DNA of 31,900 bases from an archaeon (lineage in GTDB: Archaea > Thermoproteota > Nitrososphaeria > Nitrososphaerales > CADDZS01). Below the pieces are notes generated by a model. The model saw nothing but the letters and a program-made list of their open reading frames with translations, was not told where the DNA came from and made no database searches. Both the position numbers and the translations under genes were made by a program. Positions 5,683 to 24,935 of the stretch are shown piece after piece. The DNA lies in the NCBI GenBank assembly GCA_021806865.1, contig JAKAPU010000012.1, positions 1 to 31,900 of the forward strand, read 5' to 3'. Position 1 is the stretch's first letter; the number at the start of each line of letters is the position of its first letter.

Positions 5683-5688
5683 TATTGC

Positions 5689-6441
5689 TTAACCCCCAGA
5701 ACCTGAGCTCGAACTCGAAGTTGTGATGGTGCTGGAACTCGAAGTAGATCCTGTACTGGACTGCGTCGTCGAAACTGTATCAGTTACCTCGGTCCCCCCT
5801 GTCAAGTCTGCCTCTAGGACGGCGCTCGGTTCTACGGCTCCAGTATCATGGCCGAAGATGCTGGGAGGCCCCATCGATGTAGCAAATATGTCACCAGAGG
5901 ACTCGTCGAGTTCCAAGTTCACCATAGGAACAGGCCTGGGCGCAGGCCCCCCGATCACAGCGCCCTCCTGGGTGAAGCTGTAGTGACTACCATGGCAACA
6001 GCAGTAACCTCCGTCAACGGGCATCTTGTATGATGCGTTGCATACGGGCGAGTCTCCCTTTGGGACGAACGCATAGATGCAACCCAGGTGCTGGCAGATA
6101 AGGCTGAACGCCACGATGTCTTCGTTCGGCCCGATCCCCTTCTCGGCCTTCACCCCCAGTTTCACTAGGACGTTCGGTGTATTAGTCAGCGGATAATTGA
6201 AGTTGATTGGCTTAAGATCCTGAAGATCCCTTATGTTCGCAACCTTTACCTTGGGCCACACCAATTTTACTCCCGCGCTTGGAACGAAAGTCAGATAGTC
6301 CGTGAGAAACCCCCCGACTCCGACTATTGTCCCGATAACCCCCAGAGCGACAAGGGCCTTCAGGAAGTCGCGCCTTTCTTTCACCTTATTACCACTGGGA
6401 TCACTTCGCGGAGCTTCTTTCTTGTCCTCCTGATCGCCCAT
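5689..6441 (-). CDS. Rieske iron-sulfur protein with twin-arginine signal
   Basis: This 250-residue protein accepts electrons from quinol at cytochrome b through a [2Fe-2S] cluster. The cluster motifs are complete: CQHLGC (116-121) and CCCHGSHY (147-154), giving ligands C116, H118, C147 and H150, with C121 and C149 able to form the stabilising disulfide. The N-terminus has a twin-arginine motif RRDFLK (23-28) followed by a hydrophobic segment (about 29-48), so it is probably exported by Tat and kept as a membrane anchor. The last 40 residues are a Ser/Thr/Gly-rich tail that could be glycosylated. Its gene precedes cytochrome b with a six-base gap. Confidence 0.94.
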   Translation of the reverse strand: MGDQEDKKEAPRSDPSGNKVKERRDFLKALVALGVIGTIVGVGGFLTDYLTFVPSAGVKLVWPKVKVANIRDLQDLKPINFNYPLTNTPNVLVKLGVKAEKGIGPNEDIVAFSLICQHLGCIYAFVPKGDSPVCNASYKMPVDGGYCCCHGSHYSFTQEGAVIGGPAPRPVPMVNLELDESSGDIFATSMGPPSIFGHDTGAVEPSAVLEADLTGGTEVTDTVSTTQSSTGSTSSSSTITTSSSSSGSGG

Positions 6442-7880: not shown

Positions 7881-8438
7881 ATGGTCTACAAATCAAAGTG
7901 GATGCCAGACGAAAAGATTCAGATAGTGCTTGAGTCTCTCAACACGAACATCTACGCATCCGAGCTGTGCAGGAAACACAGTGTGGGCCCCAACGCCTTC
8001 TATTCATGGAGAGAGAAGTTCATTCAGGGAGGCAAGCTCGCTCTGTCAGGCTCACTCAAAGATCCAGCCAAGGAAAAGGATGCCGAAATCCAAAGGCTGA
8101 AGCAGCTCATAGCGGAGCTCACAATCGCAAATGACTATTCAAAAAAAACTTTGGTGATGTGGCAGCCTGTAACCTTTTCAGTCCAGTCGAGGAAGATGCG
8201 ACCGATGGAAGTGTCTGAACCCCTCGTGGTTAATCGGACACATGGTGCTAGTAATAGCCTGTGTGAAAGCTCCGAGGATAATGCCCCAGTCCTAGCAAGA
8301 GGAGACTGCACTGTGGGGCTAACAAACAGCTGGGCCGTACGGCATCTTAGAGGGCTTGCAGGAAACCTGATTATGGCTGAAAAAAGTCTGTTATCAAGGC
8401 GCCTGCATTCTACTCGGCAATGTCACGGCGCGATGTAG
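7881..8438 (+). pseudogene. IS3-type transposase orfA, truncated, with non-homologous tail
   Basis: Residues 1 to about 92 match the small orfA protein of IS3-like elements: a helix-turn-helix (KIQIVLESLN to HSVGPNAFYSWREKF) followed by a leucine-zipper-like coil around KDAEIQRLKQLIAELTIAN. Homology ends at about base 8155, where intact proteins normally terminate within a few residues or fuse to orfB. The remaining 90 codons look like random open frame. No orfB (DDE integrase core) could be found downstream, so the element is inactive. A purine-rich stretch at about 7800-7875, with a G-rich run before the ATG, is probably part of the element's left end. Confidence 0.75.
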
Positions 8439-10685: not shown

Positions 10686-11068
10686 TTCATCAAACGTCGC
10701 GTTGTTTTTCGTAGGACTCCTCTGATGCTTCTACTTCATATGCCAGTTTCAAAGATGATTTTGTGTTCATGTCCAGAGGGGCTGGCATTGAGGCCAAAAG
10801 CTTGGGGTGGCAAAACTGCGGCCATCCAAGCTCGTTGCTGGCCAAGCTGGCATACAAACCTCCGGGCCAGTGGCCGAAATGAGGCCTAACTTTCAACATA
10901 GAATATTGTTGGGGATGTGCCGCCGCCGTCATCCCAAGCACATTCCCATCGCGGCAGAATCCCCTGTCCTAGTCTGAACCAAAGGTTTAATCCTCTCTCT
11001 GCACTTTCTCCTTTGAATTTTTGCTTAGCGAACATGCAACTATTGGGAAAAACTGAAGACGATTGGAC
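10686..11068. other. Probable 5' end of the IS4-type pseudogene plus promoter region of the MaoC gene
   Basis: A minus-strand frame (10690-10941, 83 codons) ends just before the pseudogene core and contains YEVEASEESYEKQRDV; it may be the frameshifted N-terminus of the same transposase. Closer to the MaoC gene, an AT-rich element GGTTTAATCC (about 10984-10993) could be a weak TATA-type box for the plus strand. No other gene is seen. Confidence 0.3.
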
Positions 11069-11572
11069 ATGTTTCAGAAAGAATTTTGTAGCTTGAGCAC
11101 GGTTTTAATGCATATGGAATCATATCCAGATTTGGGAGTTAAGCTAGTCACTGAAAAGAGGACGGTTACTGAAACTGACATAGTCAACTATGCAGGTCTC
11201 TCAGGCGATTTCCATCCTGCTCATACGGATGCAACATATGCGGCCAAGACACGGTTCAATAGAATAATGGCACACGGATTATTGACTCTCTCGCTCAGTC
11301 AGGGCCTCCTCACCAGGACCGAGTTTAGAAAGATCATACAAGCCTTATTGGGGGTCAACAATGTGAAATTTGTCAATCCGGTATTTCCTGGAGATACTAT
11401 CGGGACAATCTTCGAAGTGACTGGGCTGAGACAGAGCAAATCCAAGCCGGACATGTGGATTCTGACTTTGCATGCTGTCGTCCAGAAAAATGGAGAAGTA
11501 GTAATGGAGTATGATACGTCATATGCTGTATTCCCACCTCCGGCAAGAAAATCTACGTACCAGATTGAGTAG
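11069..11572 (+). CDS. MaoC-like (hot-dog fold) enoyl-CoA hydratase
   Basis: The protein is a single hot-dog domain of the MaoC/(R)-enoyl-CoA hydratase family, which adds water to enoyl-CoA thioesters. The hydratase signature is present: AGLSGDFHPAHTD gives the catalytic D-x4-H pair, and RIMAHGLLTLSLSQGL is the typical helix that follows. The usual length of the family is 140-160 residues. The conserved part begins about 15 codons downstream of this ATG, so the ATG at 11108 or 11114 is an equally likely start; a TTG at 11063 is also possible. It converges with the CoA-transferase gene, and together they suggest metabolism of a short-chain or dicarboxylic acyl-CoA; the substrate is not evident. 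Confidence 0.88.
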   Translation: MFQKEFCSLSTVLMHMESYPDLGVKLVTEKRTVTETDIVNYAGLSGDFHPAHTDATYAAKTRFNRIMAHGLLTLSLSQGLLTRTEFRKIIQALLGVNNVKFVNPVFPGDTIGTIFEVTGLRQSKSKPDMWILTLHAVVQKNGEVVMEYDTSYAVFPPPARKSTYQIE

Positions 11573-11623
11573 CGGAGTCATTCCGAGGGACTACACAGCC
11601 AATCTTACGAATTGGGAGAGGGT

Positions 11624-12799
11624 TCAAACTACTCCATCTGAAACTAGGGCGGATATCTGTTCCTTGGAGAGGTGAACCAATTCGCCGTATACTTCCTGAT
11701 TATTAGCACCAGGTTTCATCCCGGGCCACTTGATGCCGCAATCATATCCCTGAATCTTAAAGACGGTATCTGGCACCATCAGATTCTTCGAGCCTAACTT
11801 CATACTCCTGTATAGATTGCGCGCTACTGTCTGGGGATCGGCGCGAACCTCCGACAAATCTTTGAGTGGAGCTGCAGCTCCGCCACATTCAAGGACACCT
11901 TTTACAAGGTCCTCCCTCTTCATTTTCTTGACTTCCTCTTGTACTATCTCTGTTAAAATCTCGCGGTTTTCGACTCGCTCGCTGAGGCTTCGAAAGCGTT
12001 GATCTCTCTGAAGGTCGGGTTTACCGATGAATTTACAAAACTGTTCCCACGATGATTCATTCGGAATTATCACGTAAGCCGCTCCGTTTTGCGTTTGGAA
12101 CAAATACTCTGGAGCAAGAACAGCGCTTGTTGGTCCTTGCCGAACAGGGTATCCTGCTTCCAGATAGATCATGCTTTGCATGGTTAGCATGACGCCCACA
12201 TCAAACATTGACATGTCAATGAAAGTTCCTGATCCGGTTGCAGATCTAGTTATCAATGCCGCGAGAATCGCTACCACGGCAAAACTCGGAGTGACGAAAT
12301 CTAGAAGACCCATGCCAGCTCTTGTGGGTCTATCCGGATAGCCTGTTGAATCCATCAGACCGCTAACAGCTTGAACAATTGGGTCAAACGCCGGAAGATC
12401 ACGGTAAGGGCCGTTCTCGCCCCATCCTGTAATTGAAGCATAAATTATCCTTGGGTTGATCTTATTCACAGTCGCATAATTCAAACCTAGTCTTTCCATC
12501 GTCCCTGGTTTGAAGTTCTCAATCAAGATATCACTATGTTTGACTAGTTCGAGGAAGATATCTTTTCCACGTGGATTCTTAAGATTGAGAGTAACAAACT
12601 TCTTGCCAGCATTATAGTAGATGCTGTGTAAAGAATCTCCCTCTACAATCGGCGGAGATTGCCGCATGGGGTCTCCCCATGGTGGTTCCACTTTGATGAC
12701 TTCTGCACCCAGTTCTGCCATCAATCTACTGGCAAATGGGCCATTGAGATACGCGCCAAGTTCCAGCACACGCAGCCCCTTCAACGGAACTCTCTCCAA
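11624..12799 (-). CDS. Class III CoA-transferase (CaiB/BaiF family)
   Basis: This 391-residue protein is full length for the family, which moves CoA between carboxylic acids through an aspartyl-CoA thioester intermediate. It opens with the typical LKGLRVLELGAYLNGPFAS, followed by ELGAEVIKVEPPWGD and NLKNPRGKDIFLELV. The catalytic Asp is D139 in AFDPIVQAVSGLM. Residues near 170 (GMGLLDFVTPSFAVVAILAAL) match the dimer-interface helix. The start codon is TTG at 12797-12799, chosen because the family motif begins immediately after it. It lies 170 bases downstream of the solute-binding-like gene on the same strand. Donor and acceptor acids cannot be read from sequence. Confidence 0.92.
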   Translation of the reverse strand: MERVPLKGLRVLELGAYLNGPFASRLMAELGAEVIKVEPPWGDPMRQSPPIVEGDSLHSIYYNAGKKFVTLNLKNPRGKDIFLELVKHSDILIENFKPGTMERLGLNYATVNKINPRIIYASITGWGENGPYRDLPAFDPIVQAVSGLMDSTGYPDRPTRAGMGLLDFVTPSFAVVAILAALITRSATGSGTFIDMSMFDVGVMLTMQSMIYLEAGYPVRQGPTSAVLAPEYLFQTQNGAAYVIIPNESSWEQFCKFIGKPDLQRDQRFRSLSERVENREILTEIVQEEVKKMKREDLVKGVLECGGAAAPLKDLSEVRADPQTVARNLYRSMKLGSKNLMVPDTVFKIQGYDCGIKWPGMKPGANNQEVYGELVHLSKEQISALVSDGVV

Positions 12800-12971
12800 A
12801 ATTGGTCACACTCACAAATCTCTTGAGAAGACTAACGCCCCATGGTTGTTGCCGTGATAACTACCAAACGACCACTGCTAGATCGTTAGGAATTCAAACT
12901 AGTGTCTTTAACTTTCTTCTCACATGTTCAATTATACTTCACCAGGTTTAATACGAATGCTGACTGGCATC

Positions 12972-14126
12972 TTAAGTCGATAAAGCGTTGTTGCGAATAT
13001 TTGCATACAATTCATTAATTTTTTTCAGGCACAAAGAAGCTTCCTCTGCTTCAATCAAGTATTCTCTGATAATTTGCCCCATCAAAGACTGAGCTTCTGC
13101 AAATCTAGGAAAGCGTGGCCTGACATAGGCAAGTTCCAATGTCTTCAAAGTATTTGTGAAAAAGTCATTTGTCAAACGATTGGCGTTGGCATCTTTCCAT
13201 GCCACGACGTTTCCGGGCTGTCCACCGCTTTCGACATACAACGTTCTCTGTGTATTTGATTCAGTAACCCACATTGCGTACTCGGCTGCCTCGCGTATGT
13301 TATTGGAGCACGAAGAAATCGCCAATCCTGTTCCTCCCAAACATGCTCCTCTCGGTTGATTTGAGAATGATGGGACATTGGAGAAGAGAATCAAATTTCT
13401 TCGGAATCCTAAACGGGAATAATTTGAGTATCCGAATCCCAAAGGCATATATGCAATTTCGTTGTCACTAGCCATTTTCTCAAGCATTTGGGGCGGGTTC
13501 GAGTCTATTGAACTCGGATGAAGAAACTTTGCGAGGTGCTGAAGAAAGTTTAGCACAAAGATGCCCGTTCTCTCAGTTACTACTTCCTCCTTTCCGAATG
13601 GAGGCTCTCCATAATTTGCGCATAGTGACACAAATGTGCAAAAGACATCCGTTGGCAAAAGTGGAACACCCACCATTGCCTCACCAGTCAACTGGCGCCG
13701 TTCTGCTTCCTCCACTACTCTTTTCCAATCGGTGGGCGAGGCTGCCATCAAATCAGGCCGATATGCTGACACTTGCGCAGCGGCATCGATTGGCAGAGCA
13801 AACTGGTGACCATTGAAGAAGTAAGAGTTGAAACTTTGTCCAACAGTTTCGTTCTGCTGTTCAACCAAGAAAGATGAAGGTAGTATTTCATCTAAGGGGA
13901 CGAGATGTTTTTTCGACGTGGCAGAACCTATGAATGGATGGTCTATGATCAGGAGATCGAATTTTCCAGCAATTAGGTCAATGGAACTATCTCCGAATTG
14001 TTGAAGACTCCTTTTCTCCCAGCTGATGTCCACATTTGGATGCAGGTTGTGATACTCGTTTGCAGTCGCAACTAACGGATCGAACCCTCTTGCATGATCC
14101 CAAGTTATGCCTCTCAAAGAAGTCAA
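12972..14126 (-). CDS. Solute-binding-like protein without signal peptide
   Basis: This 384-residue protein resembles family 1 extracellular solute-binding proteins of ABC importers, with the pattern LRGITWDHARGFDPLVATA at the N-terminus, KFDLLIIDHPFIG at about 55-67, and the C-terminal region NTQRTLYVESGGQPGNVVAW that matches the ligand-binding lobe of such proteins. Unlike true binding proteins it starts directly at the mature fold with no signal peptide or lipobox. It starts with TTG at 14124-14126. No permease or ATPase of the matching (MalFGK) type lies nearby. It sits between the UlaG-like hydrolase (43 bases upstream) and CoA-transferase, a combination I associate with bacterial catabolic clusters. 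It may have a cytosolic role; function is unknown. Confidence 0.82.
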   Translation of the reverse strand: MTSLRGITWDHARGFDPLVATANEYHNLHPNVDISWEKRSLQQFGDSSIDLIAGKFDLLIIDHPFIGSATSKKHLVPLDEILPSSFLVEQQNETVGQSFNSYFFNGHQFALPIDAAAQVSAYRPDLMAASPTDWKRVVEEAERRQLTGEAMVGVPLLPTDVFCTFVSLCANYGEPPFGKEEVVTERTGIFVLNFLQHLAKFLHPSSIDSNPPQMLEKMASDNEIAYMPLGFGYSNYSRLGFRRNLILFSNVPSFSNQPRGACLGGTGLAISSCSNNIREAAEYAMWVTESNTQRTLYVESGGQPGNVVAWKDANANRLTNDFFTNTLKTLELAYVRPRFPRFAEAQSLMGQIIREYLIEAEEASLCLKKINELYANIRNNALST

Positions 14127-14169
14127 AAATTGTTATGCCGCCGGCCTGAAGTTCTATTCTGAATTCGTC

Positions 14170-14991
14170 TCATTTAGTGATTTCATAGCGTTCTGCTGGG
14201 TTGAGGATAACGAGACGAGTGGATGCGGACACCTCGGGGTATGAAGCGTCCATCGCGCGCTTTATTGTCAGAGGATCCTCTCGAATCTTGTCCCATTTGT
14301 CATAGTGATGTGGGATTATGACTTTAGGCGACATATCATTTGCGGCACGTGCAACGTCATAAGGTGTGTGGTACCAGTGTCTACCCTTTGGATTCTTTCC
14401 CAAGTTAATTATCGCTGCGTCAATAGTGAATTTGTCTGATATCTCCAAGTAGTTCGGTCCATCGTAGAGCGAGTCTCCATTGTGCAGTATGCAGATGTTA
14501 TCGTAGCAAACCACTACAATATTGGAAGCGTCAGCGTTAGGATCCCGACCAGGCGCCGCGTAAATCAAGACATCGCCATATTCCTTCTTCTCATATCGAT
14601 TTCCATCCATTGGCCAGATTCTTTCCGCAGAAATTCTCCACTTTCTTGCGTTCTCGCACGCAGATCTGGGTCCTATGAAAACGCCTCCCTTAGATACAAC
14701 AGAAAGGCTAGCTTTTTGTTCACAGTGGTCCAAGTGCTCGTGTGTTGAAACATAAGCTGCTGGTGCAGAGATGTCTGCTATGTCGAACGGAAGTGTAACT
14801 GTGCGGCGAAGTTTGAAGCCCGGAGCTCTTCCAAGCGGCGGTTGATCAAAGTCGTTCTTCCCCGCATCCAAGTCAATGAAGACCAATGGCTGGCGATGAA
14901 ACTTTACTGCCACAGACGATCCACCAAGAAACCAGACAAACGCAGCTTTTGATGGGGGATCTTTTTTTTCCATGTCCTCGATGAGAGTCAT
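14170..14991 (-). CDS. UlaG-like metallo-beta-lactamase-fold hydrolase
   Basis: This 273-residue protein is of the UlaG/L-ascorbate-6-phosphate lactonase branch of the metallo-beta-lactamase fold. The metal motif is STHEHLDHCE (HxHxDH), followed by HNGDSLYDG (HxGD) and VIIPHHYDKW at the C-terminus, as in lactonases of this branch. A strand-turn near the N-terminus (WFLGGSSVAVKF) is the usual beginning of the fold. It should be a soluble, Mn/Zn-dependent hydrolase, plausibly a sugar lactonase. It is first in a minus-strand unit with the solute-binding-like protein and CoA-transferase, and is divergent from the LLM oxidoreductase across 171 bases that include a GCAATTGC palindrome. The lactonase role in sugar oxidation is inference. 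Confidence 0.87.
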   Translation of the reverse strand: MTLIEDMEKKDPPSKAAFVWFLGGSSVAVKFHRQPLVFIDLDAGKNDFDQPPLGRAPGFKLRRTVTLPFDIADISAPAAYVSTHEHLDHCEQKASLSVVSKGGVFIGPRSACENARKWRISAERIWPMDGNRYEKKEYGDVLIYAAPGRDPNADASNIVVVCYDNICILHNGDSLYDGPNYLEISDKFTIDAAIINLGKNPKGRHWYHTPYDVARAANDMSPKVIIPHHYDKWDKIREDPLTIKRAMDASYPEVSASTRLVILNPAERYEITK

Positions 14992-15065
14992 CTGTCATCA
15001 TGTTGAGCGGGTAACAGTTATAACAAATTATCAAACATGTTAGATTTTCTACAATATAGAATAGG

Positions 15066-15073
15066 GCAATTGC
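15066..15073. promoter_or_regulatory. Palindrome GCAATTGC in divergent promoter region
   Basis: A perfect 8-base palindrome lies between the UlaG-like and LLM genes, 75 bases before one start and 90 before the other. The identical palindrome occurs once more, at 19143-19150 in the KdaD/ABC-importer divergent region. A related half-site CTGAATTG follows at 15120-15127. Candidate TATA-like sequences (GTTATAAC at about 15016, AATTATAAC at about 15142) flank it. It is a candidate operator shared by the two loci. Confidence 0.4.
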
Positions 15074-15162
15074 TGTATCAATTTACACTGCCGTAACTTT
15101 CCATGTCGGACTCAGGAAACTGAATTGTTGGAACAAAATGCAATTATAACTACTGCCATCTA

Positions 15163-16200
15163 ATGGTCACAATGCATCAGGAGGGAAACCATCAAGACAA
15201 GGAGGCTGTATCGTTTGGAGTCTATCTGCCTATTTACGACAGTGAATCAAATCTGGACCTGGCGATTGAATCGGCTATGAGCGCAGAAAGAAACAGGTTC
15301 AGCTCTGTATGGTCCTGCGACCATTTGATGGGCGTTGATTCGGTAGTCAAAGACGATTCAACTCCTGGTGTATTGCATGGCTTTACTTTGCTGTCATTTC
15401 TTGCCGCAAAGACAAACAGAGTGATTCTTGGAGGTCTAGCAGCGGCTCCTTACTGGAATCCCCTTGTACTGGCGAAGACTGCGTCAACATTGGATCTACT
15501 TTCGAAGGGACGTGCTGCAATAGCAGTGGGTGCGGGATGGCGTAAACGCGAATTCTATGCTGCTGGGCTCCCATTTGAGAATTTCAGTATGCGACTTCAA
15601 AGAACCAAAGAGACAATTGAGATATTGCGAGGGCTCTGGAAATTCAACGAGTTTTCCTATGCGGGTAAATTGTATGACATACACAACGCATCACTCTTAC
15701 CAAAACCCGTTCAGCGTAACGGACCAAAAATCTGGCTGATTGGATCAGGTGAAAAAATCACGAAACTGGCGCCATTGACTGATGGATGGTTCCCGCCTGC
15801 ATTGAGCGCAGAAGATTATGACATGAAATCTCTGGAGATAAAGAAAATCGTTTCCAATCCGAATTTTGACTTCGCAATGGAGCTATACACCTGTTGTGCG
15901 GCCAGCAGGTCTCAAGCATTCGACACTTGCAAGAGGTTCTGCAACAGATGGTTCGGAGCAAGCCCCGAACAACTCTTTGACACCACCTCGTTAGACCATG
16001 TAAACGAACTTGATACGTCTCCTATGAGGGGAAGGAAGATTGGAGTGGTCATTGGATCTTACGAAGACTGCTCGAATCAGTTGCAGAACTATGCACGCGT
16101 GGGAGTACGAAATTTTATCCTTCACTTTATGGATTCTTCGTTTACAACTCAAGGCATTGAGGGTTACTCAGATCACATCATTCCGACCATAGCACAATGA
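15163..16200 (+). CDS. LLM-class (F420- or FMN-dependent) oxidoreductase
   Basis: This 345-residue protein is a full-length luciferase-like TIM barrel. It has the opening FGVYLPIYDSE, the first-strand CDHLM segment, TNRVILGGLAAAPYWNPLVL, and the family signature of LDLLSKGRAAIAVGAGWRKRE (about residues 106-126), with the C-terminal dehydrogenase-type segment. In Archaea such enzymes generally use deazaflavin F420 rather than FMN; members include F420-dependent glucose-6-phosphate dehydrogenase and methylene-tetrahydromethanopterin reductase. The cofactor here is inferred. It is divergent from the UlaG-like gene and convergent with the aldehyde dehydrogenase. The ATG at 15172 is an alternative start. 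Oxidation of a sugar or an alcohol is possible, but no substrate can be read. Confidence 0.9.
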   Translation: MVTMHQEGNHQDKEAVSFGVYLPIYDSESNLDLAIESAMSAERNRFSSVWSCDHLMGVDSVVKDDSTPGVLHGFTLLSFLAAKTNRVILGGLAAAPYWNPLVLAKTASTLDLLSKGRAAIAVGAGWRKREFYAAGLPFENFSMRLQRTKETIEILRGLWKFNEFSYAGKLYDIHNASLLPKPVQRNGPKIWLIGSGEKITKLAPLTDGWFPPALSAEDYDMKSLEIKKIVSNPNFDFAMELYTCCAASRSQAFDTCKRFCNRWFGASPEQLFDTTSLDHVNELDTSPMRGRKIGVVIGSYEDCSNQLQNYARVGVRNFILHFMDSSFTTQGIEGYSDHIIPTIAQ

Positions 16201-16534
16201 AATCCGAAATGTCGATAATGAATCTGATAGGTGCCTCGTAGTATCGACTGTTCAATAATGCCGACAACCTAGCTGCCATTGGGGCTGTATGTTTTTGCCA
16301 CGATCTACGCGCACAGGTTTGCATCTTCCTCTCATGACGAATGAAGCCGAGTAGACACAACGGCGTTTCAGTCATCTAACGAGCAAAACTCATGTTGTGC
16401 ATTTGCGAATGTGGCATCGCAGACCGAACGCCAATCAAGCTTTAGCATATGTCGTATTGACTTTCTCGGCGTAATTCCTAGGTCAGAGTCTCAAAACTCA
16501 TCTCGCTGTAGCTCAACAGAGAGCCGATCTTCCT
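16201..16534. other. Convergent intergenic region, no gene
   Basis: The LLM gene and the aldehyde dehydrogenase gene end toward each other here. Short open frames exist on both strands but none has a credible start, codon use or recognisable sequence. No terminator hairpin was found by eye. Confidence 0.35.
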
Positions 16535-17977
16535 CTACCATCCAAGATAAACAGTCTTTTCTCGCGTGTAAAATGCCATCGCTTCCTCACCCATTTCTTT
16601 CCATGTGTTCGCACCTGACTTTTTGAAAGCTCCGAATGGAGCCTGCAGTTCAACACCGACGGTGGGTCTATTCACTTTCACTACTCCTGTGTCCACCGAG
16701 TTAACAAACTTCATTGCTGTTGGCAGATTTTCTGTGACTATGGCCGAGGTGTGGCCAAAGCTAACCGAGTTGACCAGCTCTATGGCTTCGTCTTCGTTTT
16801 TAGCTCTTATTACTGAAAGCACAGGACCAAATATCTCTTCCTTGAATAGCCTAGATTCTGGACTTACGTCTTCAAAGATTGTGGGCTTCAGAAACAATGA
16901 GTTGCTCCCTTCAATGCCTCCACCATACATCGGTCTAAGTCCCTCCTTTTTGCCCAACTCGATATACTCGAGATCAGTGTTGAGTTGGTTGCCATCTACG
17001 ACGGGGCCCATATTCACATCATCTTCGGTGCCAGGCCCGACCTTCCAGGAATTCATCTTGATCAGAATTGCGTCTTTCAGTTGCTGGTAAATGCTCTCGT
17101 GGACTATGAGCCTGCTGGTGGCAGTACATGACTGTCCTGTAAGACCGAAAGCTCCTCTTACAGCGATGTCAGCGGCTTGGTCAACTTTAGCCGAATTGTC
17201 CACATAAACAGCGTTCTTTCCCCCGAGCTCCAGCTGAATCCTTGTTGTATTCTCCTTCTTGCCCAATAGCGAATGAATGTGATTTCCAACTGGTACAGAA
17301 CCCGTGAAGGACACTGCTGCAATCCTTTTATCGCTTACAAGCAAATCACCGAGTTTGCTTCCAGTTCCAGTGATGACGTTTGCCACATCTCTTGGAAGTC
17401 CTGCTCTGTTTAGTATGCGCATGAATTCCAACACGATAAGCGGTGTCTTGGATGCTGGCTTAAGAACAATCGAGTTTCCTGCAGCCAAAGCTGGAGCAGT
17501 TTTCCATACAGGTATTGAAAGAGGGAAGTTCCATGGCGTGATGAGGGCAACCAAGCCTAGAGGCTCCTTGAATGTCAGAATAGTCGTCGCGTTGGTTCCT
17601 GACGGTATTGTTGAACCTCCATGTCTTAGGGCAACCGACCCATAGAATTTGAGCGTATTGAAACTTCTTGTGACCTCTAACCTGCTGTCAGACAGGGTTT
17701 TTCCTTCTTCCATTGTCATCAGAAGCGCGAGCTCTTCGACCTCACTTTCCATGATTTCTCCAGCTCTTGTGAGTATTTGTCCTCGCTTTACCGGATTCGT
17801 TCTTGACCAAGTCGCGAATGCTTCAGCTGCTCTTCTAATTGCAGCCTCCACATCTTCTTCACTCATGGTTTTCACTTTCGCGATGACCGAGCCGGTGGCC
17901 GGATCTTTGTCTTCTATTTCAGAACCATTACCTAGAACTTCATTTCCCAAGGATTGGTAATCAATCAAACTGATCAC
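16535..17977 (-). CDS. NAD(P)-dependent aldehyde dehydrogenase, likely alpha-ketoglutarate semialdehyde dehydrogenase
   Basis: This 480-residue soluble enzyme has all aldehyde dehydrogenase superfamily residues: N150 in TPWNFPLSIPVWK, K173, the nucleotide-binding VSFTGSVPVGN (222-232), general base E250 in LELGGKN, and nucleophile C284 in GLTGQSCTATSR. Size and sequence fit the succinate-/ketoglutarate-semialdehyde branch. Next to a KdaD-like dehydratase, the likely reaction is oxidation of 2,5-dioxopentanoate to 2-oxoglutarate. The start is ambiguous: GTG at 17977 overlaps the TGA of the preceding small ORF, while the TTG at 17968 has an excellent Shine-Dalgarno sequence (GGAAGTGATC) just upstream. 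Confidence 0.92.
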   Translation of the reverse strand: MISLIDYQSLGNEVLGNGSEIEDKDPATGSVIAKVKTMSEEDVEAAIRRAAEAFATWSRTNPVKRGQILTRAGEIMESEVEELALLMTMEEGKTLSDSRLEVTRSFNTLKFYGSVALRHGGSTIPSGTNATTILTFKEPLGLVALITPWNFPLSIPVWKTAPALAAGNSIVLKPASKTPLIVLEFMRILNRAGLPRDVANVITGTGSKLGDLLVSDKRIAAVSFTGSVPVGNHIHSLLGKKENTTRIQLELGGKNAVYVDNSAKVDQAADIAVRGAFGLTGQSCTATSRLIVHESIYQQLKDAILIKMNSWKVGPGTEDDVNMGPVVDGNQLNTDLEYIELGKKEGLRPMYGGGIEGSNSLFLKPTIFEDVSPESRLFKEEIFGPVLSVIRAKNEDEAIELVNSVSFGHTSAIVTENLPTAMKFVNSVDTGVVKVNRPTVGVELQAPFGAFKKSGANTWKEMGEEAMAFYTREKTVYLGW

Positions 17978-18171
17978 TTCCTTAAACAGAATAATTGAAA
18001 CTGATGAGACTGAAAGGGTATCCTTCCATCTCCTACAGTGCAGGATTGCACTTCGGCAATCAGGGAGGGAGCAAATCGAAGAATATTCAGTGTATCACGG
18101 CTAATCCTCTTTGGCAGTGTTTCACTCAAGATGAGATCTTCCTCCGATATGATCTTCACTTCGATATTCAC
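17974..18171 (-). CDS. Small ORF (65 aa) coupled between KdaD-like dehydratase and aldehyde dehydrogenase
   Basis: This ORF fills the gap between its two neighbours exactly: its GTG overlaps the TGA of the dehydratase (GTGA), and its own TGA overlaps the GTG of the aldehyde dehydrogenase (GTGA). Double four-base overlap is the usual sign of translational coupling, so it is probably translated. The first 45 residues (IEVKIISEEDLILSETLPKR, then FAPSLIAEVQ and VGDGRIPF) have a beta-strand-rich pattern distantly reminiscent of the first half of cyclophilin-like domains (DUF369/DUF3830 types), but the chain stops at half that domain's length, so it may be a truncated relative. The C-terminal dozen residues (SHQFQLFCLRK) look less convincing. 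Function unknown. Confidence 0.5.
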   Translation of the reverse strand: MNIEVKIISEEDLILSETLPKRISRDTLNILRFAPSLIAEVQSCTVGDGRIPFQSHQFQLFCLRK

Positions 18172-19064
18172 GACGGTTTGGGAAGCTGTAGAACCTTATT
18201 TCTAAGCGCCCCTATGCCTTCGATTTCGATGTCGACTAGGTCGCCATCCTTAAGCGAAAAATCATCTGGAGGAACAATTCCTGTGCCGGTCATTAGAATG
18301 GTTCCGTCTTGCAAAACGTTGTCTCTACGAAGGTATGAGGTGAGCTCCTCGAAGCTTCTCTTGAGTTGAGAAGTAGATGTGCTGTTTTGGAAGGCAATAT
18401 CTCTATCTCGGTATATCGTCATTGTAATTCCTAGAGATCCAGGGTTTGTTAGTTCCTCGGGGGTTACCAAAACAGGTCCAACCGCACAACATCTAGAAAA
18501 TATCTTTGCTTGCGGCAAATAAAGTGGGTTTGTCCCTTCTATATCTCGTGCTGATACGTCGTCTCCAATTGTATAACCAATGACTCGACATTCGGAATCC
18601 AATACAAGTGAAAGCTCTGGTTCTGGAACAGTCCATTTAGAGTCGCTTCTGATTCCAATACTGTCTCCAGGTCCAACGCATCTTGTCCCGTTTGCTTTGA
18701 AAAAAATTTCCGGCCTTTCGGAGTCATACAAGTAGTTATACAATCCCTTAAGGGCGGTTTCAACCTCTCTCGCCTCTCTGCTCCTCTTGTAGGTTATGCC
18801 GGCGCCCCAAACTTCTGTAGGCACTAAGGGAATATTGAGTTTGGTTGCTTTCGCTTCGTACTTTGGAGCGGCTTTTGCACCTGCCAATGAGTCTCGAATA
18901 GTTTCAGAAATACTTCTCTCTGTACTCTTCGCATTCCTCAGAAGCGAATAGAAGGAATTGAACTGAGGTTGATTTAAGGCAGTCAGATCCAATATTGTAT
19001 TATCAGTAATCATTCCAAGTCTTGGTTGTTCGTTTCCTGTTGTTGAGAAGCTGCAAATTTTCAT
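18168..19064 (-). CDS. kdaD: 2-keto-3-deoxy-D-arabinonate dehydratase-like FAH-fold enzyme
   Basis: This FAH-superfamily protein closely follows the archaeal KdaD enzyme, which dehydrates 2-keto-3-deoxy-pentonate to 2,5-dioxopentanoate in oxidative pentose catabolism. Characteristic segments are VWGAGITYKRSREAR, RPEIFFKANGTRCVGPG, and the metal-site stretch with E148 and E150 (VPEPE) and D169 (GDDVSARD), numbered from this start. TNPLYLPQAKIF and LQDGTILMTGTGIVP are further matches. The ATG at 19064 gives 298 residues, the size I recall for Sulfolobus KdaD, and has a TATA-like box centred about 30 bases upstream, suggesting a leaderless mRNA; an upstream ATG at 19118 would add 18 residues. 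Downstream genes overlap it as a coupled unit. Exact stereochemistry of the substrate is unknown. Confidence 0.86.
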   Translation of the reverse strand: MKICSFSTTGNEQPRLGMITDNTILDLTALNQPQFNSFYSLLRNAKSTERSISETIRDSLAGAKAAPKYEAKATKLNIPLVPTEVWGAGITYKRSREAREVETALKGLYNYLYDSERPEIFFKANGTRCVGPGDSIGIRSDSKWTVPEPELSLVLDSECRVIGYTIGDDVSARDIEGTNPLYLPQAKIFSRCCAVGPVLVTPEELTNPGSLGITMTIYRDRDIAFQNSTSTSQLKRSFEELTSYLRRDNVLQDGTILMTGTGIVPPDDFSLKDGDLVDIEIEGIGALRNKVLQLPKPS

Positions 19065-19090
19065 TTCGAAAGTCATTTGATGCTCGTTGA

Positions 19091-19102
19091 TAAAAAATAT
19101 TT
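19091..19102 (-). promoter_or_regulatory. TATA-like box for the KdaD operon
   Basis: On the minus strand the AT-rich stretch AATATTTTTTAT lies about 26-37 bases upstream of the ATG at 19064, the distance expected for an archaeal promoter driving a leaderless transcript that starts near that ATG. This favours 19064 over the upstream ATG at 19118. It was assigned by position and composition only. Confidence 0.5.
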
Positions 19103-19123
19103 CTGGGAAATTGGGCATTTAGT

Positions 19124-19150
19124 GCAATTCAGCAACAGAATTGCAATTGC
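19124..19150. promoter_or_regulatory. Inverted repeat/operator candidate between KdaD and ABC sugar importer
   Basis: GCAATTC (19124-19130) and GAATTGC (19138-19144) form a perfect inverted repeat with a seven-base spacer, and an overlapping palindrome GCAATTGC follows at 19143-19150. Thus two arms and a full palindrome of the same half-site are packed into 27 bases, midway between the divergent KdaD and sugar-binding protein genes. The arrangement suggests a dimeric regulator controlling both directions. The HTH_10 protein encoded at 22421-23098 is a candidate, untested. Confidence 0.5.
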
Positions 19151-19222
19151 CACTTTCTCTATCTCTAATATTTCATACTTGTTAGAGCTCTGCTTAAGTG
19201 TCACTGTGTAACCTCGGAACAT

Positions 19223-20419
19223 ATGGTAGGCAAGATGAAGCCGGGACATTTGTCAATTAATCGCAAAAGAGGTATTTCGACAACTATTGCAGCTGTAACA
19301 GTTATAATCGTGATAATAATAGCTGCGGCCGCGGTCGCCTTTACACTCTCTTCCTCGAAGACAAGTACAGTTACTTCAACAGTTGTCTCCACATCCAGTG
19401 GAAGTACAGTAACGTCAACGATTGTTTCGACGTCCAGTGGAAAGACGAATTACCTGATCTACTTCTACATGGAGTCGTTTGATGTCACTTATTTTACGAA
19501 CATTATCGATGGTGCAAATTATGCAGCTTCGCAATTTAACGCGGCTTACCCGAATATGACAGTAAGCATTGTTTCCTTCAATGGACAGGACGATCCGGCG
19601 CTACAAACTTCACAGATTCAAGATGGCATTTCTGTGCACCCGGCAGGAATGATAGTTGACCCAGTGACGGATTCTGTCAGCGCTGCAGTCTCCAGTGCTG
19701 TCGCTGCAGGCATACCTGTTGGAATTGTTGACCGAGCTCTTACCAACCAGAGTGGAACGTTGTTTGTAGCGACATCCAATCAGACTGCCTATGGTCAAAT
19801 GATTGCGGAGACAGCGATGAATAAGATGAAATCAATGAACATCCCCACGCCTTGGAATGTGGTTAGCATCCAAGGAACGATTGGGTCGCCCACAAATACG
19901 GAGAGGAACAACGGCATTCTCTCGGTCCTCAACGCCTACGCAGCTAACGGGACGATCAAGATAGTTTCAGACTCTCAGAGTGGGCAGTGGTTGGAGCAAC
20001 CAACCGTCTCTGTAATGTCGGCGCTATTGGCGCAGTCGAAGAATATTAACTTGGTGATTACATCTAACGGGCCGGAGGGAGAAGGCGTCGCTACTGCAAT
20101 AACGCAAGCAGGCTTAACCCCGGGCAAAAATATCTACATTGTTTCGGGCGATGGAGGTGCGGGAACATACGGTCTGATATCGTCTGGTCAAATCTTGGCC
20201 TCAGTGGATCAAGAGCCATACGTGATGGGATATTGGGGCACAATAATGCTCATGAATAATGTCTTGCACAACATCACGCCGCCGACGTATCTAGTTCCAA
20301 CTGCAATCATATCTGTTGATTCCACGAATGTTGCGCATGTGGGTCCATACGGTGAACCCCTGAACGTGACAGCCGTTCCTCCCCCACCTCTCCCGCAGGG
20401 ATACGGGCCGATGCCATAG
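19223..20419 (+). CDS. Sugar-binding protein of a ribose-type ABC importer, with pilin-like signal
   Basis: This 398-residue protein captures sugar at the cell surface for the permease and ATPase encoded downstream. The N-terminus (RKRG at 14-17, then a 24-residue hydrophobic run from ISTTIAAVTV) matches a class III (archaellin/pilin-type) signal cut after the Gly, the kind used by Sulfolobus sugar-binding proteins that assemble into bindosomes. A Ser/Thr linker (43-75) with two 13-residue repeats follows and is likely glycosylated. The rest is a periplasmic-binding fold (Peripla_BP_4): YFYMESFDVTYFTNIIDGAN, GIPVGIVDRALT, and SGDGGAGTYGLISSGQILAS with the conserved Q-x-P hinge. An alternative start is the ATG at 19235. 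The likely ligand is a pentose or related monosaccharide. Confidence 0.9.
   Translation: MVGKMKPGHLSINRKRGISTTIAAVTVIIVIIIAAAAVAFTLSSSKTSTVTSTVVSTSSGSTVTSTIVSTSSGKTNYLIYFYMESFDVTYFTNIIDGANYAASQFNAAYPNMTVSIVSFNGQDDPALQTSQIQDGISVHPAGMIVDPVTDSVSAAVSSAVAAGIPVGIVDRALTNQSGTLFVATSNQTAYGQMIAETAMNKMKSMNIPTPWNVVSIQGTIGSPTNTERNNGILSVLNAYAANGTIKIVSDSQSGQWLEQPTVSVMSALLAQSKNINLVITSNGPEGEGVATAITQAGLTPGKNIYIVSGDGGAGTYGLISSGQILASVDQEPYVMGYWGTIMLMNNVLHNITPPTYLVPTAIISVDSTNVAHVGPYGEPLNVTAVPPPPLPQGYGPMP
19364..19441 (+). repeat. Tandem 39-bp repeat encoding the S/T linker of the sugar-binding protein
   Basis: Two imperfect 39-base units each encode STVTST[VI]VSTSSG (residues 48-60 and 61-73). Third positions differ between copies while the protein is kept, so selection is probably on the Ser/Thr-rich linker rather than on DNA identity. 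Confidence 0.8.
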
Positions 20420-20442
20420 TCCGCATCAACGCACGAAAAATG

Positions 20443-20469
20443 ACCCGATGTCTTCAAATGACATCGGGT
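20443..20469 (+). terminator. Strong hairpin between binding-protein and permease genes
   Basis: ACCCGATGTC (20443-20452) and GACATCGGGT (20460-20469) are perfectly complementary across a seven-base loop. There is only a short T-rich run afterwards (TGCTTTGCC). It starts 24 bases after the binding-protein stop and 180 bases before the permease ATG. Such intra-operon stems commonly protect the binding-protein mRNA end or attenuate read-through, giving more binding protein than permease. The element is certain as a hairpin; its effect is inferred. Confidence 0.65.
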
Positions 20470-20654
20470 TGCTTTGCCGCCATCTTTAAGGGTGCACAGC
20501 GAGAGTCAATAGTCACGCAGAAATTCAGGAGATGGAATCACATACATCATCGCTTCAGATTTGTTGCTGAATCAGAAATCAAGAAAACCCTGTGCGAGCG
20601 ACACCTTTCACACAAGTTAATCGTCGTAAGACTTCAGAGAGCTTGAGTTTGTGG

Positions 20655-21629
20655 ATGAAATTACACTTGACGAGCGCCCTTGGAAAGCTTGTACGTGATG
20701 AAAAATACAGGCCATTGATTTTCCTCATTGCATCGTTGGTCGCTGGCGAGTCAATCTCCAGCTCATTCTTGACCACTGAAAACATGCGTTCATTGGCCAT
20801 TTCGTCAGCCCCACTAGTTGTTATGACCATAGGAGAAATCTTGGTCATGATGACAGGCATGATAGATCTCGGGGTGGAGTCGGTGGCTGCAGCCTCTTCC
20901 ATGCTCGTCGCCTACCTGATGCTTTATACTACGCTGCCAATACTTGTGATAATCGTGATCGTCCTGGGCCTCGGACTTGCTGTCGGATTGTTCGATGGTT
21001 TCATGGTGACAAAATTCAGAATGCCTTCGTTTCTTGTAACCTTGGGAATCTATTGGGGCATGAAAGGATTAGCTCTCATAATTGGCAATGGCGCAACATT
21101 GTCTCCTGGTTCTGTCTTTCCTGCAAAACCTTTTGGCATCGTCTCATTAAACGGTTCAATAGGATCCGTCCCAGTCCTATTCGTTGTGGGTGTTGTACTA
21201 ACAATCTTCTTCCAGATCGTCATATCCAAGACAATAATGGGGAGGCACATCCTAGCTGTGGGAGGAAACGAATTAGGCGCAAAAGAGTTGGGTGTCAACA
21301 ACGTTAGGATCAAGTATATTGTGTTCATTGCTTCCGGAATGCTCTCATCGTTTGCAGGAATAATGCTTACTGCATGGCTGAACTCGGCGTATCCTCTGGT
21401 AGCTTCGGGATGGAGCTTGGAATCGATAGCCGGGGCTATCCTCGGAGGCGTGGCTTTTTCCGGTGGAGTAGGGAGCATAGTTGGTGGATTCGTCGGTGCA
21501 TTCATAGTAAACATGTTGACAGACATAATAGTTCTTGCACACATATCCGCTCTCTACAGCTACGTTGTGGTTGCAGTCATACTCATATTGGCTGGTCTTC
21601 AACTGAAGAGAGGGGAAATCGCGAAGTGA
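20655..21629 (+). CDS. Ribose-type ABC sugar transporter permease
   Basis: This membrane protein of about 324 residues belongs to the RbsC-like (BPD_transp_2) family and would form the channel for sugar delivered by the upstream binding protein. It has eight or nine hydrophobic helices. Family marks include GMIDLGVESVAAASSMLVAY near residue 72, DGFMVTKFRMPSFLVTLGI, GRHILAVGGNELGAKELGVN (the cytoplasmic EAA-like loop that contacts the ATPase), and GAILGGVAFSGGVGSIVGGF. The chosen ATG removes 21 residues of unconvincing upstream frame that begins with GTG at 20592. The stop lies 21 bases before the ATPase start, so the two are one operon. Confidence 0.9.
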   Translation: MKLHLTSALGKLVRDEKYRPLIFLIASLVAGESISSSFLTTENMRSLAISSAPLVVMTIGEILVMMTGMIDLGVESVAAASSMLVAYLMLYTTLPILVIIVIVLGLGLAVGLFDGFMVTKFRMPSFLVTLGIYWGMKGLALIIGNGATLSPGSVFPAKPFGIVSLNGSIGSVPVLFVVGVVLTIFFQIVISKTIMGRHILAVGGNELGAKELGVNNVRIKYIVFIASGMLSSFAGIMLTAWLNSAYPLVASGWSLESIAGAILGGVAFSGGVGSIVGGFVGAFIVNMLTDIIVLAHISALYSYVVVAVILILAGLQLKRGEIAK

Positions 21630-21650
21630 CGATGTCGAGGAGCGTGATTT

Positions 21651-22391
21651 GTGACGGATTCATCCAGCAATAAGCCAGTTCTAGAAGCACTGAACATCCG
21701 TAAACATTTCGGAGCTATAGCAGCTCTCGAATCAGTGACTTTCAGCATAGGAAATGGTGAAGTCGTCGGACTTGTAGGGGATAACGGCGCTGGAAAATCC
21801 ACTTTGGTGAAGGTCATCACTGGTTATTATTCAGACTATTCTGGTGAAATCAGATTGCGCGGAAAATCGATTCACATGGGTTCTCCTAAGATTGCGCATG
21901 ACCTCGGCATAGATGTTGTGCATCAGGATCTTGGACTTTCTCCGAATCTCTCGGTCCGCGACAACATTTTTCTTGGTCGCGAGATAGTTTCACGATTCAA
22001 ATTCATTGATTATAGGTCAGAGTCTGAAACTGCAAGGAAAATATTGGATCAACTCAACAAGGAAGTAGACACCGAAACCAAGGTTGGATCGTTATCTGGG
22101 GGTCAGAGACAACTTGTGGCTATTGCACGAATAATGCTGCGCAACCCCAAGATCGTCTTCATGGATGAGCCGACTTCAAATATATCGGAACATGCAGCCA
22201 AAGAGGTCTTGGATTTGATTCGAAGGCTGAAGACAGGAGGAACCTCAACCATCTTAATCAGTCATCGACTCCAGGAAGTACTAGATGTCTGCGATAGGAT
22301 ACTTGTTCTCAGAAACGGGCGATCTGTAGCGGACGTGAGTGCAAAAGGCGCGTCGATAGAAGGTGTGCTTAGACTCATGGTAGCCGGTTAA
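21651..22391 (+). CDS. ABC transporter ATPase, single domain, sugar importer type
   Basis: This 246-residue cytoplasmic ATPase powers the upstream permease. It has Walker A GDNGAGKST (43-51), Q-loop Q92 in VVHQDLGLSP, signature LSGGQ (148-152), Walker B IVFMDE (168-173) and switch His H205 (ILISHR). It is related to RbsA/XylG, but has one nucleotide-binding domain, whereas most members of this importer class fuse two; a homodimer is therefore expected. The start is GTG with a good Shine-Dalgarno sequence (GAGGAG, 21637-21642) about eight bases upstream. It is the last gene of the transporter operon and converges with the HTH_10 regulator. Confidence 0.93.
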   Translation: MTDSSSNKPVLEALNIRKHFGAIAALESVTFSIGNGEVVGLVGDNGAGKSTLVKVITGYYSDYSGEIRLRGKSIHMGSPKIAHDLGIDVVHQDLGLSPNLSVRDNIFLGREIVSRFKFIDYRSESETARKILDQLNKEVDTETKVGSLSGGQRQLVAIARIMLRNPKIVFMDEPTSNISEHAAKEVLDLIRRLKTGGTSTILISHRLQEVLDVCDRILVLRNGRSVADVSAKGASIEGVLRLMVAG

Positions 22392-23964: not shown

Positions 23965-24280
23965 CTAAAGGAATGCAGTTGATTTGCCTATTCCCAGCAT
24001 CCGCATGTTCACGATGCCGGAGACGATGCTTGTCATGGCATCGTAGTGCGGTAGCCTATTTCTGAACTCTTCTCCAATTATCCGGAACTTCTTCAACTTG
24101 GAGATTGTGTGCTCTACCTCGACCCTAATCTTGGAAAGCTTCCTATTGAACCGTCTCTTCCTTTTCCAGAGCTTTCTAGGATGCCACCTGTTCCTCTTGA
24201 ACGGGATCATCGGCTTCAGCTTGGGGAAGTCTTTCTTGACGTCCTGATATCCGAGGTCGAACGCACCGCTGACTCCACCC
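23965..24280 (-). pseudogene. C-terminal remnant of an IS5-like DDE transposase
   Basis: On the minus strand, the frame beginning about 24280 reads GAFDLGYQDVKKDFPKLKP, then KRRFNRKLSKIRVEVEHTIS, KKFRIIGEEFRNRLPHYDAM and SIVSGIVNMRM. This is the last part of an IS5/DDE_Tnp_4 transposase, including the region of the catalytic Glu in RVEVEH. The N-terminal part with the first catalytic Asp residues is missing because IS630-like sequence is joined at about 24280. An internal ATG at 24210 gives the 81-codon open part. Confidence 0.72.
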
Positions 24281-24284
24281 CCTC

Positions 24285-24935
24285 ATCTTAGACCATTTGA
24301 GGTGAGTCCAATGAAACACTACGGGATTGAACTTTGGGTAGTACGGGGGGAGCCTGAATGCGGTTATCCTTTCCTTGTTCTCTTCCAGAATGTCGTTGAC
24401 AACGCCAGATCGGTGCGGAGACGAACCATCCCAGAGCAAGATTATGTGCCTCTTATGTGCCTGAGAAGCTGACTCAGATACTCCATCACAACTCCGCTGT
24501 TTACAGATCCCTCGCACAGCTTGAAGTGGACACTTCCGTTGAGACTTATTCCACCAATCGCTGAAAGGTGCTCCCAGTTGAAGTTGTATTTTATAATCGA
24601 CATTTCCTGACCGGAGACCACGTCTTACCAACGAGTGGAATCAGCGAGAGACCGGACTCGTCCTCGATCACGAGTATTCCATGCGTAGCTTGTAGCTTTT
24701 TTGATTTCAGGGAAGTGTGTTTTGCACCCAATCACTGACCTTCTCTTCATCGAATTCTCTTGCCTGACCATCTGGCTTCTTCCAGGAAAGGTTGAGCGAG
24801 TGCAAAATCCTCGCAACCTGGCCTGTCAGCGACCTGATGCTCAGAAAGCGCTTCTTCGACAATTATCCTGACTCCCTTGAGCCGTCTTTCCTCAAGGGTC
24901 AGAGCGTCTCTCCTTTTCTGCTCCCATGCCGCCAT
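24285..24935 (-). pseudogene. IS630-like transposase, broken by several frameshifts
   Basis: Pieces in all three minus-strand frames follow the order of an IS630 (DDE_3) transposase. The N-terminus has TLEERRLKGVRIIVEEALSE (helix-turn-helix region), then QVARILHSLNLSWKKPDGQA in a second frame, LVIEDESGLSLIPLVGKTWS with the first catalytic Asp region, and HIILLWDGSSPHRSGVVNDI followed by LPPYYPKFNPVVFHWTHLKW, the DxxxxH and PYxPxxNPxE-type motif in which the catalytic Glu appears as Val (NPVVF). Several frameshifts and this replacement make it inactive. It abuts the IS5-like remnant at about 24280, so one element inserted beside or into the other. Confidence 0.75.

Follow-up and report, generated by a model that had tools for sequence, protein, structure and literature searches.

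In Sulfolobus, the gene for KdaD, the 2-keto-3-deoxypentonate dehydratase, presumably adjoins a gene for an aldehyde dehydrogenase (ALDH) resembling 2,5-dioxopentanoate (α-ketoglutarate semialdehyde, KGSA) dehydrogenase (KGSADH). For the other protein types concerned here, published studies describe UlaG-like proteins in haloarchaea (PMC3219644, 2011), call the role of F420 in haloarchaea enigmatic, with a single F420-dependent reaction reported (PMC8305020, 2021), and note that Gagatemarchaeum genomes carry as many as 12 genes with the annotation F420 glucose-6-phosphate dehydrogenase, for which stress resistance was proposed (PMC10640624). Here, a stretch of 31,900 nucleotides (hereafter the window; assembly GCA_021806865.1, contig JAKAPU010000012.1), whose host is presumably Nitrososphaerota (Thaumarchaeota)-like, was analysed for a locus that holds a KdaD-like gene and an ALDH gene together with a sugar importer, a UlaG-type hydrolase of the metallo-beta-lactamase (MBL) fold, and a luciferase-like (LLM) oxidoreductase. 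With modest confidence, it is read as a sugar-acid catabolic locus comprising the importer, a UlaG-type lactonase, KdaD, and the ALDH, to which the LLM gene is linked by position.

Scans against Pfam covered 28 translations out of the 36 open reading frames (ORFs) of at least 120 amino acids in the window, the remaining eight of which overlap scanned ORFs or represent a second form of one. From left to right, the following genes were found:

11063..11572, + strand: MaoC-type hydratase/dehydratase (PF01575, E 1.5e-28; best NCBIfam model RipB/Ich, 67 bits, far under the cut-off of 340)
11624..12799, - strand: CaiB/BaiF family III CoA-transferase (PF02515, 346 bits)
12972..14126, - strand: SBP_bac_1-like protein, no signal peptide seen, possibly cytoplasmic (PF01547, 38 bits)
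14170..14991, - strand: UlaG-type MBL-fold hydrolase, probable sugar lactonase (by fold, ligands, and family)
15163..16200, + strand: LLM oxidoreductase, outside the clade of F420-dependent glucose-6-phosphate dehydrogenase (FGD) (PF00296, 136 bits)
16535..17977, - strand: aldehyde dehydrogenase, probable 2,5-dioxopentanoate (KGSA) dehydrogenase (PF00171, 523 bits)
18168..19118, - strand: KdaD-like FAH-fold protein (252 bits, E 7.8e-74 to KdaD, PDB 2q18)
19223..20419, + strand: sugar-binding protein of a CUT2-type ABC importer (PF13407, 137 bits)
20592..21629, + strand: CUT2-type permease (PF02653, 114 bits)
21651..22391, + strand: single-domain ATP-binding protein of the importer (PF00005, 122 bits)

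After the importer genes, an HTH_10 regulator on the minus strand follows in the Pfam and NCBIfam scans. The importer (19223-22391, +) is of the CUT2 type, with consecutive Peripla_BP_4, BPD_transp_2, and ABC_tran genes, and lies 104 bp from the divergent KdaD gene, which is separated from the ALDH gene by 190 bp. The ALDH and LLM genes converge, their ends being 334 bp apart, and the LLM gene diverges from the UlaG-type gene across 171 bp; the latter forms one co-directional run with the SBP-like and CaiB genes (gaps of 43 and 172 bp, respectively). The first-pass annotation of this DNA had named the KdaD-like dehydratase, the ALDH, the importer, and both divergent arrangements, all of which were recovered; it was wrong in placing the LLM/UlaG pair 3-4 kb away, given the 334 bp between the LLM and ALDH gene ends, and it had overlooked the MaoC, CaiB, and SBP_bac_1-like genes.

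Compared with solved structures, the FAH-fold protein matched KdaD at 252 bits and the next solved FAH protein at 62 bits, and its identity as a 2-keto-3-deoxypentonate dehydratase is well supported by sequence. The best NCBIfam model of the ALDH was 2,5-dioxovalerate dehydrogenase (493 bits, below the cut-off of 750), making it a probable and fairly supported KGSADH; with this reservation on the model score, the earlier claim that the two genes encode the last steps of an oxidative route for pentoses was supported. In 400 genomes sampled from the order that includes G001, a Thaumarchaeota metagenome-assembled genome (MAG), KdaD was present in 18 (E<=1e-30). The named KdaD relatives among 120 matches listed included Nitrososphaerota, Thaumarchaeota, Bathyarchaeia, Caldarchaeum, and one Heimdallarchaeota entry, and the only UlaG relative of named origin comes from a Thaumarchaeota MAG. 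Neighbours were scored, by search with named proteins, at the best KdaD place of all 18 genomes (a second copy in G202 was left out; in seven places the contig ends less than 1 kb away on one side). An ALDH 46-55% identical to that of the window adjoins KdaD in 10 of the 18, and relatives of Zn-dependent alcohol dehydrogenases lie within 4 kb of it in three (G001, G407, and G382), so that other dehydrogenases are at hand for the first step; in KdaD-bearing relatives, this shows, that step could equally well be assigned to a conventional dehydrogenase. At L027 2235-5523 (G001) and L053 (G407), the Zn-dependent alcohol dehydrogenase genes, whose products are 76% identical to each other, and DUF4432-like genes were seen near KdaD.

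The UlaG-type protein was predicted as a structure with a pLDDT of 91.4, whose best solved Foldseek matches were UlaG (2wym/2wyl, TM-score about 0.85). THxHxDH, D173, and H229 are common to it and E. coli UlaG, in keeping with the UlaG family in fold and metal ligands, and its 70.5 bits lie far below the cut-off of 306 for the ascorbate-6-phosphate lactonase equivalog. Its close family (A1) is 48-61% identical. UlaG-like matches were rare, being found in 2 of 400 class genomes (E<=1e-20), 3 of 400 order genomes (E<=1e-15), and 13 of 334 phylum genomes (E<=1e-20); across these searches a close-family member, judged by score, occurred only in G001, and the viral contigs searched gave no match. 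In G001 (L001), the relative, 51% identical to the window protein, is flanked on one side by an RraA-like gene and, beyond this, a galactonate-dehydratase-like gene (325 bits, cut-off 311); Azf-like dehydrogenase and Gfo/Idh genes flank it on the other side. All three order genomes with a UlaG-like match also carry KdaD, compared with 18 of 400 overall (chance 8e-5, kinship not corrected).

The reading of the window protein as a sugar lactonase rests mainly on haloarchaeal neighbourhoods. A search of plasmid records with a Haloterrigena UlaG-type homologue yielded 39 records with 42 places, and 16 of the 18 haloarchaeal places were examined within 8 kb (omitted were H199, nearly a copy of H198, and one further NZ_CP100757 place); several are orthologous near-copies, so that the 16 are not independent cases. 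An ALDH was found in 13 of the 16 loci, and in 10 it was of the KGSADH type (at least 64% identical to the Halorussus vallis ALDH); three of these (L099, L108, and L110) were scanned and scored 841-868 bits with the 2,5-dioxovalerate dehydrogenase model (cut-off 750). KdaD was detected in 4 of the 16, Gfo6 (at least 48% identity) in four, and a uronate-dehydrogenase-type gene in six, one or the other dehydrogenase being present in 9 of the 10 KGSADH-type loci. In Halorussus vallis (L108), the MBL, ALDH, Gfo6, MR/MLE, and FAH/KdaD genes are consecutive and stand beside xylan-type genes, and uronate-type loci of Haloterrigena pHTUR02 and Halostagnicola stand beside pectin-type genes. Moreover, the importer ATPase of the window is 44% identical to its counterpart in the Haloarcula litorea gfo6/MBL cluster. 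Together with fold and ligands, the gene neighbourhoods in the haloarchaea and in the Thaumarchaeota MAG make a sugar lactonase the likely, and best, reading of the protein, with its activity predicted, and thus support the lactonase role suggested at first pass.

In the proposed pathway, the CUT2 importer would bring a sugar into the cell, and the UlaG-type protein would open the lactone of that sugar, with a sugar dehydrogenase acting before it and an aldonate dehydratase after it, neither of which was identified in the window. KdaD would then convert 2-keto-3-deoxypentonate to 2,5-dioxopentanoate, and the ALDH would oxidize the latter to 2-oxoglutarate, while the CaiB and cytoplasmic SBP-like proteins of the UlaG run would form a side branch, this pair being often found in bacterial fucose/rhamnose-type oxidative clusters.

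A number of observations weigh against this pathway. Among the 28 window proteins scanned, there was no pentonate dehydratase, as already stated at first pass, and no aldose 1-dehydrogenase or other recognised sugar dehydrogenase. With the haloarchaeal UlaG-type proteins, the window protein shares no more than about 24-27% identity. Of the 16 haloarchaeal loci, two (L105 and L109) had none of the genes sought, and in three (L101, L104, and L113) the ALDH reached just 36% identity to its Halorussus vallis counterpart, those of L101 and L104 exceeding the cut-off for methylmalonate-semialdehyde dehydrogenase. In none of the three UlaG-bearing order genomes was the gene seen beside KdaD. At 13 UlaG-like places in 12 further genomes of the phylum, no KdaD, ALDH, or LLM match was detected in the surrounding stretches, some of which are short (one UlaG match is partial); the neighbours identified there (L131-L140) include FGGY kinase, GH31 glycosidase, and class II aldolase genes, perhaps reflecting another sugar role. 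In the literature, haloarchaeal UlaG-like proteins were judged to differ in function from bacterial UlaG, to which they were held unrelated in this respect since they lack the oligomerisation parts (PMC3219644), and the known pentonolactonases were assigned to SMP30 (PMC9795676). The literature searched by title and abstract start, which leaves the fold class of the Haloferax pentonolactonase (2017) outside it, reports no MBL pentonolactonase.

Judged by its family, the LLM protein of the window is not an F420 sugar dehydrogenase, and that name should be avoided for it. Scores of 141 bits with TIGR03560 and 138 bits with TIGR03619 both fell below the cut-offs, and the FGD model TIGR03554 (cut-off 420) gave 36 bits. 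In an alignment of 55 LLM proteins, with motif positions taken from the Rhodococcus fgd row, DH(F/Y/V)xPW and the GE position were present in all 12 FGD-group rows, whereas the window protein has CDHLMGV and GAGW there and thus lacks the DHxxPW and GE motifs, which we take to have a catalytic role in the clade of FGD, F420 sugar-6-phosphate dehydrogenase (FSD), and Adf. A fork with support 100/95 splits the FGD group from the window protein, whose branch is long, and a placement inside the FGD clade was rejected (p-AU 0.011, to be read with that long branch). Two other placements, as sister to the LLM of L103 (p 0.035) and to that of L044 (p 9e-5), were rejected as well, subject to the same long branch. 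The best fold matches were 3rao and FMN monooxygenases, with Mer and Adf lower at TM-scores that hardly differ, and this ranking weakly points the same way. The first-pass annotation had proposed this protein as an F420 sugar dehydrogenase and had itself named a phylogenetic position away from such enzymes as grounds for giving the idea up; score, motif, and tree agree in removing it from the FGD/FSD type.

The alternative that survives best, tentative and somewhat less likely than not, is that the LLM gene is a passenger and that the UlaG/SBP/CaiB run and the KdaD/ALDH pair are the functional locus. LLM genes are very frequent in these archaea (G001, a genome of 2.4 Mb, has 33 matches), so that finding one next to a sugar locus would carry little weight. 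The homologues of the window LLM are distant (23-34% identity, 24 aligned), no orthologue with kept neighbours was found in the genomes searched, and an exact-pattern scan of genome contigs gave no relatives. In a comparison for a conserved LLM-ALDH-KdaD order, G399 (L044) showed an LLM gene at a distance of 3.3 kb from KdaD and with the same orientation; it was not used as synteny because it is neither among the best matches of the window LLM there nor its sister. Against a passenger stand the 171 bp divergent promoter region shared with the UlaG-type gene and the finding that, in two archaeal groups, LLM genes lie close to KdaD or UlaG-type genes more often than expected (see below).

The LLM protein might otherwise belong to the CaiB branch. 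The SBP-like gene has only two in-frame codons upstream of its TTG start and thus encodes a protein without a visible signal peptide. Relatives, mostly 30-40% identical, were found on 146 plasmid records, and eight bacterial loci were examined (in the range L090-L098, L095 and L096 being one locus). A CoA-transferase gene adjoins the SBP-like gene in seven of the eight and lies two genes off in the other; MaoC-annotated genes occur in six, rhamnose-mutarotase-type or RhaT genes in six, amidohydrolase genes in four, and L-fuconate dehydratase in three (L096, L097, and L098). The window CaiB is 50% identical to that of G382, the best match in the 18 KdaD-bearing genomes (429 bits, next 254), which lies 1.0 kb from KdaD, and about 32-39% identical, where matched, to the CoA-transferases of the bacterial loci. 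We think that the CaiB and SBP-like proteins may form a branch of sugar-acid catabolism that is linked to CoA, in which the SBP-like protein would serve as binding partner; the literature searched by title and abstract start reports no CaiB/SBP/fuconate clusters. A second cluster of Martelella (L097 17773-26397), with FAH, sugar ABC importer, enoyl-CoA hydratase, CoA-transferase, short-chain dehydrogenase/reductase (SDR), and aldose epimerase genes, is reminiscent of L056 in G382 (enoyl-CoA hydratase, CaiB, SDR, and KdaD). That the LLM protein works in this branch, for example as an FMN/F420 enzyme on a CoA-linked or keto-acid intermediate and not on a free sugar, is somewhat unlikely: it lies in the same stretch as CaiB and MaoC, and its fold neighbours SfnG, MsuD, SsuD, and RutA use small organic substrates, but no LLM gene is annotated in the stretches displayed for the eight bacterial loci.

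It is a shade less likely again that the UlaG/SBP/CaiB run belongs to an unrelated pathway and stands beside KdaD by chance. UlaG relatives in L001 and at the phylum places have no KdaD neighbour, and the one close SBP-like relative, in G350, adjoins genes resembling succinate dehydrogenase (by eye only); set against this, CaiB is linked to KdaD in G382, the SBP/CaiB pair recurs in bacterial sugar clusters, and UlaG-type and KdaD genes are 15 bp apart in one haloarchaeal locus (L099). Near the SBP-like relative in G350 (L034) there is also a cytochrome b 47% identical to one encoded in the window, where cytochrome b (SoxC-like) and Rieske genes lie at 4189-6441 (-).

LLM genes of the FGD type do lie near KdaD or UlaG-type genes elsewhere. 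Such a gene immediately adjoins KdaD in 2 of the 18 KdaD-bearing genomes, G344 (L054) and G415 (L057), with 0.047 expected and a probability of two or more of 0.001 (56 FGD-group genes of at least 160 bits), or 0.18 expected and P 0.015 if all LLM matches are counted, assuming a density of one gene per kb with two neighbours visible. In G403, a gene of this type and that of a distant UlaG-like homologue are transcribed divergently. In 3 of the 16 haloarchaeal loci (L099, L101, and L104), an FGD-type LLM gene lies within 8 kb of the UlaG-type gene (0.14 expected, P 4e-4; P 0.008 with the orthologous pair L101/L104 counted once; LLM genes were counted in 60 of 78 records, so that the expectation may be slightly low). 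Gfo6 (48%) or uronate dehydrogenase was found in none of these three, vs 10 of the 13 others (P 0.036, near-copies kept). L101 and L104 look, by gene content, like inositol-type loci, since an annotated glucose 1-dehydrogenase, iolM, and Gfo/Idh genes lie near their methylmalonate-semialdehyde-type ALDH. Only L099, of Natrinema gelatinilyticum, also has KGSADH and KdaD:

L099 7685-13364 (NZ_CP100757.1): an FGD-type LLM gene, with genes for an ALDH, a nucleoside hydrolase, a UlaG-type MBL protein, and KdaD divergent from it

Its ALDH is over the KGSADH cut-off, its UlaG-type and KdaD genes are those 15 bp apart, and another nucleoside hydrolase and an adenine-deaminase-like gene lie upstream, making it a candidate cluster for the oxidation of nucleoside ribose. 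Furthermore, in Natrinema DC36 a TIGR03619-type LLM gene, nearer to the kind in the window, stands by a galactonate dehydratase gene, 4.5 kb from a UlaG-type gene. Relatives of the Haloterrigena FGD-type LLM (at least 69% identity) occur on 12 plasmid records, with a UlaG-type gene alongside in only two, one about 16 kb off in a third (Halomarina), and no UlaG-type match in the other nine, among them Salinigranum, whose locus has Gfo/Idh, MR/MLE, and IclR genes; that most of these relatives lack an adjoining UlaG-type gene argues against a general link. In three Haladaptatus records with both FGD-type LLM and KdaD among the matches listed, the genes are at least 28 kb apart. CofE, for F420 synthesis, was found in all six order genomes searched, as a fragment in G403.

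From these loci an archaeal F420-linked oxidative pentose route can be drawn, in which an FGD-type LLM would oxidize the sugar, a UlaG-type MBL protein would open the lactone, and KdaD and KGSADH would finish; the window would be a divergent case, its first step carried out by another LLM type or by an outside gene, with an added CoA-linked branch of a CoA-transferase and a cytoplasmic protein of the sugar-binding fold. This route is doubtful, and the methylmalonate-semialdehyde-type ALDH and annotated glucose 1-dehydrogenase of L101 and L104 lower its probability; in Natrinema gelatinilyticum its sugar would probably be ribose freed by nucleoside hydrolases. FSD enzymes are reported to oxidize xylose slowly, at 400 mM (PMC6279831), and the literature searched by title and abstract start reports no F420-linked Weimberg route. 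The core of the window, with KdaD, a probable KGSADH, and an importer, is ordinary, and the F420-linked pathway of the first-pass annotation may exist in other archaea, with the strongest evidence at the one Natrinema cluster: the combination of LLM, UlaG-type lactonase, and KdaD was recovered there as a cluster and elsewhere in parts, with the FGD type of LLM and not that of the window.

That the window's own LLM is an F420-dependent aldose dehydrogenase which opens the KdaD pathway by supplying, with the UlaG-type lactonase, its first and second steps is highly unlikely: its position, with UlaG divergent from it and the ALDH gene 334 bp off, the adjacencies in G344 and G415, the pairings in G403, L099, L101, and L104, and the Natrinema DC36 gene speak for it, and the 36 bits with the FGD model, the absent motifs, the rejected clade, the FMN monooxygenases among the best fold matches (Mer and Adf at similar TM-scores), and the Zn-dependent alcohol dehydrogenases near KdaD in 3 of 18 relatives speak against it.

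Outside the locus, transposase-related short ORFs (HTH_Tnp_1, DDE_3) were detected on both sides, at 7881-8438 (+) and 24176-24631 (-). Farther along, a dihydrodipicolinate-synthase-family protein at 25064-25912 (-) scored 205.5 bits with the DapA model, just below the cut-off of 206.15, and perhaps serves lysine synthesis, and an MFS transporter is encoded at 26703-28199 (-), whose best model, a phosphate:H+ symporter, gave 322 bits, below the cut-off.

Compared with known systems, the locus shares with the oxidative D-arabinose pathway of Sulfolobus solfataricus a KdaD-like FAH dehydratase and an adjoining KGSADH-like ALDH; it differs in having a UlaG-type lactonase candidate and CaiB, SBP-like, and MaoC genes, and in that no sugar dehydrogenase or enolase-type dehydratase was found in the window. 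The haloarchaeal xylose-type clusters of Halorussus vallis (L108) and Haloarcula litorea (L100) resemble it in the UlaG-type MBL, KdaD-type FAH, and ALDH, and the latter also in an importer with a single-domain ATPase, whereas they have Gfo6 and MR/MLE where the window has an LLM gene, and the UlaG-type proteins are distant. With E. coli UlaG, an L-ascorbate 6-phosphate lactonase, the window protein has the fold, THxHxDH, and further metal ligands in common, but it is shorter and 22-23% identical by structural alignment, and no ascorbate genes were seen. The window LLM belongs to the same superfamily as FGD, FSD, and Adf and keeps the DH pair of the first motif, but is without the PW and GE positions and lies outside their clade. 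The fucose/rhamnose-type clusters of Labrenzia (L096), Martelella (L097), and Roseibium (L098) have an SBP-like protein 37-38% identical, a CaiB neighbour, MaoC, and a putative lactonase close by, theirs being an amidohydrolase of a different family; they carry L-fuconate dehydratase and Gfo/Idh, and no KdaD/KGSADH pair was seen there. If the readings above hold, the clustering of an FGD-type enzyme with a UlaG-type lactonase, KGSADH, and KdaD would suggest a catabolic use of F420 in sugar oxidation, archaea would gain a sugar lactonase of the MBL fold, and the CaiB/SBP-like pair would be an unexplained part of sugar-acid catabolism common to archaea and bacteria.

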